64,000 bases of DNA from positions 1 through 64,000 of the forward strand of contig JADZEK010000090.1 in the NCBI GenBank assembly GCA_020850595.1, given 5' to 3'. Position numbers and translations under genes: made by a program. Positions 39,652 through 41,652 of the stretch are shown in pieces. Within the stretch, counting starts at the first letter, position 1, and each line of letters starts with the position of its first letter. The notes under the pieces are model-generated. The model did no database searches. It was not told the origin of the DNA and saw nothing but the letters and a program-made list of their open reading frames with translations. The DNA is from Anaerolineales bacterium (GTDB lineage Bacteria > Chloroflexota > Anaerolineae > Anaerolineales > UBA6663).

Positions 39652-41136
39652 GTGAGCGCTTCCGCCCCGCCCCCTGAACCCACCCCTCGCGTCACCCGTG
39701 GCTTCATTGCCGAGGTCGAGCCGGACTCGCTCGCCGCCGACCTGGGCCTGCGCCCCGGCGACACCCTGCTGACCGTCAACGGCCACCCGGTCGAAGACGT
39801 AATAGACGTGCAGTTCTACGCCGCCGAAGACCGCGTGAGCGTGACCTTCGAGCGTGACGGCGCCGCGCAGACCGCCGCGGCCGACCGCGACGGCGGCCAG
39901 CCCCTGGGCCTGACATTCGAGCATCCTACCTTCGATATTGACATCCGGCGCTGCAACAACCTGTGCCCGTTCTGCTTCGTGCTGCAAACCGCGCCGCGCA
40001 TGCGCCGCACGCTCTACATCAAAGACGACGACTACCGCTACAGCTTCCTGTTCGGCCACTATGTCACCCTGACCAATCTCAGCCCGCACGACTGGGATCG
40101 CATCGCCGAGCAGCACCTCTCGCCGCTGTACGTCTCGGTGCATTCCACCGACCCGGCCAACCGCCGCGCCTGCCTGAGTAATCCCGGCGCGCCCGACGTG
40201 CTGGCGCAACTGCGCTGGCTGGCCGAACACAGCATCGAGGTGCACACCCAACTCGTCATCACGCCCGGCCTCAACGACGGCGCGTGGCTAGACCAGTCCA
40301 TCCGCGACCTGGCCGAGCTATACCCGGCGGTGCAGTCAGTCAGCGTGGTGCCCGTGGGCCTGACACGCCACCACAAGTACGGCCGTCGTGTCCACTCCCC
40401 CGCCGAGGCGGCGGAGATACTCGACAGCGTGGCCGTGTGGCAAGCGCGCTTCCGGCCCGAGTTCGGCGTGGGCTTTGTCTACCCCACCGACGAGTGGTTC
40501 CTCGTCACCGGCCGCCCGCTGCCGCCGCGCCGCTACTACGACGGCCTGGACCTGGCCGAGAACGGCATGGGCATGGTGCGGGCTTTCCTGGACGACTGGA
40601 AGAAAGTGAAGCGCGAGCTTAAGGCGCGCACCGGGCAGGCGGGGCAGCCGAAGCCCGGCAAGCCGAAATCCAAAGCGCCCCCAGAGCCGCTGTCCCTGGC
40701 GGGCCGCGCCGCCACGCTGGTCACGGCCACACTGTTCGAGCCGACCCTGCGCGCCGCCGCCGCCGAGTTCAACGCCGCCGCCGGCACGCGCCTCAACGTG
40801 GTGGGCGTGACCAACGAGCGCCTGGGCCACACTATCACCGTGGCGGGCTTGCTCATGGGCGCGGACATGCCCGCCCAACTCGCCGGGCGCGACCTGGGCG
40901 AATTCGTGGTACTGCCGCGCGTGATGTTCGACCATCCGCAAGGCATTAGTCTGGACGACGTCTCGCCGCTAACCATCGCCCAGCAGTTGGGCCGCCCGGT
41001 GTTCCTGGCCGATGCGCTTGGCGACGTGCTCGACGCCTTCACCGGCGATAACCCGCTGCGCATCGCGCCCGATCAGGCGGTCATCCCGCTCGACGTGATG
41101 CGCGCCGGCGGCTGGGCGGTGGAAAAGTACCTGTAA
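39652..41136 (+). CDS. PDZ / radical-SAM-like / DUF512 iron-sulfur protein
   Basis: The 494-residue protein has an N-terminal PDZ-like domain (about residues 14-80), a cluster motif C-x3-C-x2-C (C101, C105, C108 in RRCNNLCPFCFV), a TIM-barrel-like core with VSVHSTDPANRRACLSN and VITPGLNDGAWLDQS, and a C-terminal DUF512 domain (GADMPAQLAGRDLGEFVVLP, then DDVSPLTIAQQLGRPVFL). This is the TIGR03279-like group of radical SAM relatives of unknown reaction. A low-complexity KPGKPKSKAP insert sits near residue 345. It starts at GTG, 50 bp after the acyltransferase gene, and is the last gene before the glmS promoter. It is widely found near der or plsC-like genes. Confidence 0.9.
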   Translation: MSASAPPPEPTPRVTRGFIAEVEPDSLAADLGLRPGDTLLTVNGHPVEDVIDVQFYAAEDRVSVTFERDGAAQTAAADRDGGQPLGLTFEHPTFDIDIRRCNNLCPFCFVLQTAPRMRRTLYIKDDDYRYSFLFGHYVTLTNLSPHDWDRIAEQHLSPLYVSVHSTDPANRRACLSNPGAPDVLAQLRWLAEHSIEVHTQLVITPGLNDGAWLDQSIRDLAELYPAVQSVSVVPVGLTRHHKYGRRVHSPAEAAEILDSVAVWQARFRPEFGVGFVYPTDEWFLVTGRPLPPRRYYDGLDLAENGMGMVRAFLDDWKKVKRELKARTGQAGQPKPGKPKSKAPPEPLSLAGRAATLVTATLFEPTLRAAAAEFNAAAGTRLNVVGVTNERLGHTITVAGLLMGADMPAQLAGRDLGEFVVLPRVMFDHPQGISLDDVSPLTIAQQLGRPVFLADALGDVLDAFTGDNPLRIAPDQAVIPLDVMRAGGWAVEKYL

Positions 41137-41153: not shown

Positions 41154-41181
41154 TTGACGCGCCGGCCCGCCTCCGTATAAT
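41154..41181 (+). promoter_or_regulatory. Promoter of the glmS transcription unit
   Basis: TTGACG (41154-41159) and a perfect TATAAT (41176-41181) are 16 bp apart, giving an expected transcription start near 41188 and an mRNA leader of about 465 nt. Confidence 0.78.
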
Positions 41182-41250
41182 CCGCTCAACGGCGGCATTC
41201 GGTCCCGCTGAAGCGCTTGAAAGGACGGTGACCCACCACAAACTCGGGGA

Positions 41251-41460
41251 AAGAGAGCGCATGGCCTCCGCGGCGGCTAGCCCTGCCGGGGAGGTGACGA
41301 GGAGGCGGTTCCTGCCGTAGGGCAGTGCTAACGGGCGATCCGCCCGGAACAGCGAGGTATCAGCGGAAGCCGCCGAGGGCCCCCACAGCCCTCAACTCTC
41401 CCCATCAATCAGCGGGTTCCTATAAACCCCCGGGCGACCGGGGCATAACGGAACCGGCCG
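41251..41460 (+). ncRNA. glmS self-cleaving ribozyme (glucosamine-6-phosphate-responsive), with enlarged P2 arm
   Basis: In glmS leaders this ribozyme cuts the mRNA when GlcN6P is bound, lowering GlmS. Blocks matching the family occur in order: predicted cleavage site A41256|GCGC; P1 CCTCC/GGAGG (41265-41269/41290-41294); GTGACGAGG (41294-41302, consensus GUUGACGAGG); P2 GGCGG/CCGCC (41304-41308/41370-41374); GCGGAAGCC (41363-41371, consensus GCGGAUGCC); P3 GAGGGC/GCCCTC; P4 GGTTCC/GGAACC (41415-41420/41450-41455), with inner stem CCCCGG-GCGA-CCGGGG and trailing CATAA. The P4 hairpin, its GCGA loop and the TAAACC/GGCATA internal loop match the T. tengcongensis RNA closely while the stem sequences differ, which is good covariation. 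Unusual: about 50 nt inserted in the P2 loop, closed by GTTCC/GGAAC and holding two small hairpins. Confidence 0.85.
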
Positions 41461-41652
41461 TGGCCCCACTCCCACCGTTCGGACGTGATTCCGGCGCGTC
41501 ACCGACCCTCGGCGGCGTTCTGGCCGCGCACCTGGCCGGTCACGGGGTGGCGGGCAATCTCATTGTCAGCCAGTTCGCATACACCCCTGGGCTGGTCTGC
41601 CGCTCCTGGCGGCCGGGCCTGCCACCCTTAGCTATTCCTGGAGGCACATTCT
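41461..41652 (+). other. Remaining glmS leader, 3' of the ribozyme
   Basis: About 190 nt separate the ribozyme from the glmS start codon. Several GC-rich stems are possible, but I find no recognised riboswitch or terminator. GGAGG at 41639-41643 is the Shine-Dalgarno site of glmS. Open frames on both strands here are not supported by start signals. Confidence 0.5.

Follow-up and report, generated by a model that had tools for sequence, protein, structure and literature searches.

The 5' leader of the glmS gene in the window (the 64,000-nucleotide stretch of DNA from an Anaerolineales bacterium analyzed here) contains an RNA that is a member of the glmS ribozyme class by every available sequence test and that exhibits a lineage-specific form; it represents a new variant of an already known ribozyme class. 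Taken as a whole, this leader is, with high probability, best explained as a glmS-class ribozyme of a Chloroflexota form that is distinguished by an insert in the core, a shifted P2.2 helix and a release of the linker coupled to a helix termed P0. The lineage as a whole combines a remodelled core with a helix through which the leader that is cut off is connected to an expression platform. The glmS ribozyme is described as a sensor of GlcN6P that regulates genes for making this compound (PMC10043782) and as acting by way of RNase J1, which degrades the cleaved mRNA (PMC7125110). Judged from its sequence, the window RNA is probably cleaved in a GlcN6P-dependent manner as well; we infer in this way its catalysis, its ligand and the direction of control.

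Detection, anatomy and distribution of the window RNA

The Rfam covariance model RF00234 aligns over its full length with positions 41,245-41,466 (forward strand) at 27.7 bits, which is below its gathering score of 37 bits. The corresponding E-values are 1.2e-4 for a scan of 541 bases and 3.2e-4 for the 5.83-Mb genome, in which this RNA is the sole match even at E<=10. Because the score falls short of the gathering cut-off, the RNA is missed by default annotation, and a default Rfam scan of the ribozyme region gave no match. A second covariance model (R1) was derived from 26 RNAs that belong to other genomes and all lie upstream of glnA or gltB, the window not being among them; it scored the window RNA at 72.8 bits and found no other match in the window's genome. 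The predicted folding of the RNA lies 2.6 s.d. below that of shuffles. A leader rich in G and C, with a modest Rfam E-value viewed alone, might also be a structured leader that resembles glmS ribozymes by chance or convergence. We give this notion practically no credence: R1 detects the RNA at E 1.3e-14 without having been trained on it, the correct gene follows downstream, and relatives that lie above the cut-off with RF00234 scores of 38-66 bits, together with R1, already refute it. The reading of this leader as a divergent glmS ribozyme, put forward in the preliminary description, is supported by the covariance-model match and by P1-P4 pairings that are retained in relatives through compensatory changes.

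Residues are numbered according to the crystal-based core of Andreasson et al. 2020 (PMC7125110). In that core, P2.2 consists of the pairs 2-56, 3-55, 4-54 and 5-53, a bulged A6, and the pair 7-52; for P2.1, the pair 28-45 and the strands 28-30 and 43-45 are stated, from which we infer the pairs 29-44 and 30-43, and the strand 43-45 lines the cofactor pocket (PMC7125110). All helices of the class (P1, P2, P2.1, P2.2, P3, P3.1, P4) are present in the window RNA (Table 1), which ends 187 nt upstream of glmS. It contains the cut site A|GCG, the ACGAGG segment, C44 G45 and the GCGG core residues; residue -1 is an A in 121 of 124 glmS leaders. The double pseudoknot is retained, P2.2 through covariation with a shifted bulge and P2.1 through C28-G45 and G29-C44, with a non-canonical A30.G43. 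P3/P3.1 and a P4 with a purine internal loop and a GNRA tetraloop complete the fold. The motif blocks lie where they had been placed from the sequence, i.e. the cut between A41256 and G41257 followed by GCGCAUGG, GTGACGAGG ending at 41302, GCGGAAGCC at 41363-41371, and the GCGA loop of P4. A reading of AUCGAAAGAU as a simple GNRA hairpin was rejected, as the published core structure puts it in the P2.1-P2.2 pseudoknot. The gene directly upstream of the leader (39,652-41,136) encodes a PDZ / radical-SAM / DUF512 protein (TIGR03279-like).

Table 1. Positions in the window of the glmS leader, its ribozyme and adjacent features
Feature	Position	Strand	Basis and remarks
Sigma-70-like promoter, TTGACG - 16 nt - TATAAT	41154..41181	+	11/12 consensus positions; 0.1 expected in shuffles; putative function
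P0 5' strand GGGGAAAG	41246..41253	+	Against 41396-41403 CUCUCCCC: 7/8 pairs, one A.C mismatch
Predicted cleavage site A41256/G41257 (residues -1, 1)	41256..41257	+	RF00234 and R1 alignments
P2.2 5' strand, C2 G3 C4 (A5 bulge) U6 G7	41258..41263	+	Pairs with G56 C55 G54 A53 C52 at 41361-41365; residues 4-6 covary with 53
P1 hairpin, 41264-41276 / 41283-41295	41264..41295	+	One G.G mismatch; covaries in relatives
A27 C28 G29 A30 G31 G32 (ACGAGG)	41297..41302	+	Invariant in A1; P2.1 5' strand C28 G29, A30 opposite G43 (PMC7125110)
P2 5' strand GGCGG	41304..41308	+	Pairs with CCGCC 41370-41374; P2 pairs kept in A1; RF00234 and R1 alignments
Core insert	41309..41349	+	Closing helix UUCC 41309-41312 / GGAA 41346-41349; hairpins covary in relatives
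Insert parts: hairpin A; conserved GCUAAC; hairpin B	41313-41324; 41327-41332; 41333-41345	+	
A42 G43 C44 G45 (canonical AUCG)	41351..41354	+	P2.1 3' strand, ligand-pocket residues; U43 replaced by G
A50 U51 C52 A53 G54 C55 G56 G57	41359..41366	+	3' strand of P2.2, with G57 as a pocket residue; numbering PMC7125110
P3 hairpin GAGGGC / GCCCUC	41375..41393	+	RF00234 alignment, relatives
P3.1, P3 loop CCAC with GUGG	41383-41386; 41460-41463	+	Reciprocal changes in relatives, by eye
P3-P4 linker, P0 3' strand	41396..41403	+	UCUCC also able to pair with glmS Shine-Dalgarno GGAGG, weak here
P4, internal loop UAUAAAC / CAUAAC, GCGA tetraloop 41434-41437	41413..41456	+	RF00234 alignment
glmS Shine-Dalgarno GGAGG	41640..41644	+	Sequence
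glmS, glutamine--fructose-6-phosphate transaminase, 619 aa	41653..43512	+	TIGR01135 753.6 bits, SIS and GATase domains

The form found in the window is not particular to its genome; it is usual in its order and present in other classes of the phylum. RF00234 matches occur in 50 of 61 genomes of the same order (16 above the cut-off), most of them before glmS, and nearly all RNAs parsed among these matches carry the core insert; sub-threshold matches that are devoid of the ribozyme blocks (L060, L061, L065, L066, L067) were dropped. R1 matches are spread over the phylum (69 of 301 genomes). A pattern scan over 84,980 named species genomes yielded at least 119 stretches, and those listed are titled as Chloroflexota, mostly Anaerolineae, except for one bin labelled Actinomycetes. 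In this bin (L130), a glmS-type core is found about 450 nt before the start of glnA, and either a mislabelled bin or a transfer may be the cause. The order includes the cultured Bellilinea caldifistulae (strain GOMI-1; locus L243 in genome G017).

The remodelled catalytic core

With the Firmicutes glmS ribozyme (RF00234; T. tengcongensis, B. subtilis), the window RNA shares the A/GCG cut site, ACGAGG, A42..C44 G45 and GCGGA, the helices P1-P4, the P2.1/P2.2 double pseudoknot, P3.1, the internal and GNRA loops of P4, and the place before glmS. It differs from it by an insert of approximately 40 nt that forms two hairpins and separates P2 from A42, by an A5 bulge with a U6-A53 pair where the canonical form has C4 C5 with G54 G53 and a bulged A6, and by the G43 of its family in place of U43. 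Further differences are the P0 helix to the leader in the window's lineage and, in relatives, a linker complementary to the Shine-Dalgarno sequence. McCown, Roth and Breaker reportedly described in 2011 glmS variants of Deinococcus-Thermus with additional stems in the catalytic core; these are likened here by description alone, with no homology of the inserts implied.

The insert comprises a closing helix of 4 bp, hairpin A, the GCUAAC segment and a variable hairpin B, and it joins the 5' strand of P2 to A42, just before this residue and thus between P2 and the strand of the ligand pocket. An enlarged P2 arm had been proposed for this region. The insert itself (about 40 nt) is real, as are the pairings GTTCC 41308-41312 / GGAAC 41346-41350, TGCC/GGCA (41313-41316 / 41321-41324) and GGGCG/CGCCC (41333-41337 / 41341-41345) assigned to it; its assignment to P2 did not hold, as it follows the 5' strand of P2 and precedes the 3' strand of P2.1, and P2 is ordinary. 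The window's family is represented by four genomes; hairpin A and GCUAAC hardly vary among them, and hairpin B can be as small as 5 bp or as large as about 100 nt. The two hairpins take the place of the short P2-P2.1 joiner and probably stiffen the core. The insert is missing from nine of 180 parsed glmS leaders, in which a short joiner is found. Since leaders of this kind are found within the Chloroflexota (L253, L254, L255, L258, L261-L264, L266; 23-25 nt versus about 65), gain or loss of the insert is traceable inside the phylum.

Most Chloroflexota RNAs, including that of the window, have GCGCAUGG in combination with A53. Among 228 distinct RNAs, those without C4-C5 have A53 in 214 of 214 cases and those with C4-C5 have G53 in 12 of 14, in a set that was partly selected by a pattern requiring A53 and in which every C5-G53 case comes from the unselected part. 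The alteration of P2.2 suspected from the window alone is consequently both correct and general among Chloroflexota. The combination of GCGCAUGG and A53 fits a bulged A5 and a U6-A53 pair that would take the place of C5-G53; RNAs with GCGCAAGG or GCGCACGG retain a mismatch at this P2.2 position. Bulge shifting was inferred from rescue mutants by Andreasson et al. (PMC7125110), and the Chloroflexota P2.2 bulge positions are natural cases of it.

In all four genomes of the window's family (the window, L016, L030, L055), residue 43 is a G, which stands opposite an unchanged A30. The same replacement of this pocket-lining residue, canonically a U, recurs in further Chloroflexota families (L214, L217, L240, L265). 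Such a G43 facing A30, a sub-threshold Rfam score and a mismatch in P0 are traits that one could expect from a decayed ribozyme that inherited the fold and lost cleavage or GlcN6P sensing through drift of residue 43, P2.2 and P0. We consider such decay improbable: G43 is common to all four family members and recurs in other families, the residues A-1, G1, C2, C28, G29, G45, G56 and G57 are intact, and P1, P3 and hairpin B show compensating changes between family members. G57 we take to be a residue that contacts the ligand in the pocket.

P0 and a proposed coupling of cleavage to glmS expression

In members from Anaerolineae, P0 is formed by the leader immediately 5' of the cut, which typically reads GGGAAAGA, together with the P3-P4 linker (UCUUUCCC). 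In 124 glmS leaders, cognate P0 pairing amounts to 18.5, compared with 16.46 +- 0.20 for swapped partners; this control breaks the pairs and keeps the ancestry, so that the difference, like those given for other pairings below, is evidence of correlated change and not a tree-corrected probability. P0 is perfect in the sister RNA L030, and it is altered yet retained as GGAGGGU/ACCCUCC (L075), GAAAGUA/UACUUUC (L119) and GGCAAAU/AUUUGCC (L010). When sought by eye in the insert-less and other-class leaders inspected, it was not evident in the former or in most of the latter. In 66 of 113 glmS leaders, the linker is continued by CCUCC, which is complementary to the Shine-Dalgarno sequence (cognate pairing 16.8, swapped 15.5 +- 0.22, in the 113 leaders); in the window, this match comprises only 5 bp.

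Since P0 binds the strand 5' of the cut to the P3-P4 linker, cleavage should release the linker. The next bases of the freed linker match the Shine-Dalgarno sequence in many relatives, and release and match together suggest that cleavage could block translation directly; it would also expose an mRNA with a 5'-OH. Counting against our preferred explanation are the sub-gathering Rfam score, G43 at the pocket, the mismatch in P0 and the short Shine-Dalgarno match.

The complementarities of the linker to P0 and to the Shine-Dalgarno sequence covary, a property for which a ribozyme would have no use if mRNA decay were its sole mode of action and that might be accounted for by a non-cleaving riboswitch with a glmS fold, whose ligand shifts the pairing of the linker from one partner to the other. 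We see little reason to favor such a switch, given that the cut-site A/GCG and the core residues are retained in almost all members and that P0 lies on the very strand that cleavage would remove. A search for a transcriptional terminator in the window's leader found none, and terminator-like hairpins in the glmS leaders of relatives (17/113, versus 7/113 in mononucleotide shuffles) were not counted as a feature.

A second subtype before glnA and gltB

Many genomes possess a second match upstream of glnA (TIGR00653, 521 bits for L035) or of a glutamate synthase gene (PF01645); in the genome of the window, a search with R1 did not find this second subtype. In 35 of 39 glnA/gltB leaders, residues 1-8 read GCGGCUGA, GCGUAUGG or close variants, an extra nucleotide precedes P1, and residue 26 is variable; the C4-G54 pairing and the G26 of the core triple, which characterize the class, are mostly not kept in these leaders. 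The glmS leaders have the core GCGCAUGG versus GCGGCUGA of the second subtype, and 123 of 124 are without the extra nucleotide and 122 of 124 keep G26. Because some glnA/gltB leaders (4/39, with a fifth case, L205, in another set) keep the glmS-type core, the link between core type and gene is strong without being strict. Both core types occur in 22 of 104 genomes with parsed RNAs. B. caldifistulae GOMI-1 has both subtypes, with L054 as its glnA leader and L113 as its glmS leader. Most members of the second subtype retain the cut site, G1, C2, A42, U43 and G57, and their changed P2.2 core possibly forms a helix with a bulged G4. L007 and L013 score 47.7 and 42.9 bits with RF00234, above the cut-off, and many others score below it; the strongest of these RNAs are annotated by Rfam as glmS. 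An altered core GCGGCUGA lies directly before glnA in L007, L013, L022, L035, L054, L072, L076 and others, most of which have a linker helix, an antiterminator and a terminator. Before glutamate synthase genes (L010, L052, L053, L056, L086, L097, L205), the core is ordinary in some cases and altered in others.

P0 is also found in the 39 glnA/gltB leaders (cognate 15.2, swapped 13.9 +- 0.26). In addition, UGGAAGGG follows P4 and is complementary to the CCCUUCCA of the linker, a pairing termed P5 (cognate 20.9, swapped 18.7 +- 0.43). A terminator-like hairpin with a U-run comes next, as a rule 25-35 nt ahead of the start codon, in 21 of 31 leaders versus 4 of 31 when shuffled, and the AGGG of UGGAAGGG heads an antiterminator pairing with the 5' arm of this terminator (AGGGCUGCC / GGCAYGCCC). 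In 36 distinct leaders, the antiterminator reaches -14.7 kcal/mol for cognate partners, -12.9 +- 0.31 for swapped and -8.5 +- 0.43 for shuffled ones. Full-length P5 and the antiterminator are mutually exclusive, and P0 and P5 share about two linker bases. Cleavage is in this subtype probably coupled to attenuation. With the leader attached, P0 would hold the P3-P4 linker and the AGGGC of the downstream strand would form the antiterminator; with the leader cleaved off, the linker would take UGGAAGGG to form P5, the antiterminator would be lost, and the terminator would form.

A paralogous subtype with a clear terminator switch is placed on nitrogen-assimilation genes. We tentatively suggest, as a possibility that we regard as rather doubtful, that this Anaerolineae paralogue (GCGGCUGA/GCGUAUGG) controls the synthesis of glutamine and glutamate through cleavage-coupled attenuation by sensing, in place of GlcN6P, a nitrogen metabolite (e.g., glutamine) or some other amine. 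Another ligand would be favored by the GS/GOGAT targets and by the consistent core divergence of paralogues that share a genome; the kept pocket residues and the ordinary core of some gltB/glnA leaders would favor GlcN6P. If GlcN6P is the ligand, amino-sugar supply would tune nitrogen assimilation; if it is not, the second subtype would, to our knowledge, be the first ligand switch in the glmS class, with the first built-in expression platform. A change of ligand is directly testable on named sequences, including those of the cultured B. caldifistulae GOMI-1. The known glutamine riboswitches (glnA and downstream-peptide motifs) resemble the second subtype in their position before nitrogen-assimilation genes; their Rfam families gave no match in seven loci with an altered core or a nitrogen gene, where RF00234 was the sole family above threshold. 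A literature search that covered few subscription papers revealed no account of a glnA subtype or of Chloroflexota variants, which is no proof of novelty; the glnA/gltB subtype is apparently the new, undescribed part.

Altered cores also occur before other genes. Eleven such RNAs with a terminator (L193-L200, L206, L212, L234) form one family upstream of an ada-like gene, whose product combines an AraC HTH with an O6-methylguanine-DNA methyltransferase and has no obvious fit to GlcN6P or glutamine. In Longilinea arvoryzae KOME-1 (L157), an altered-core RNA precedes an open reading frame of 46 aa, which has no confident Pfam match and could encode a small regulatory peptide.
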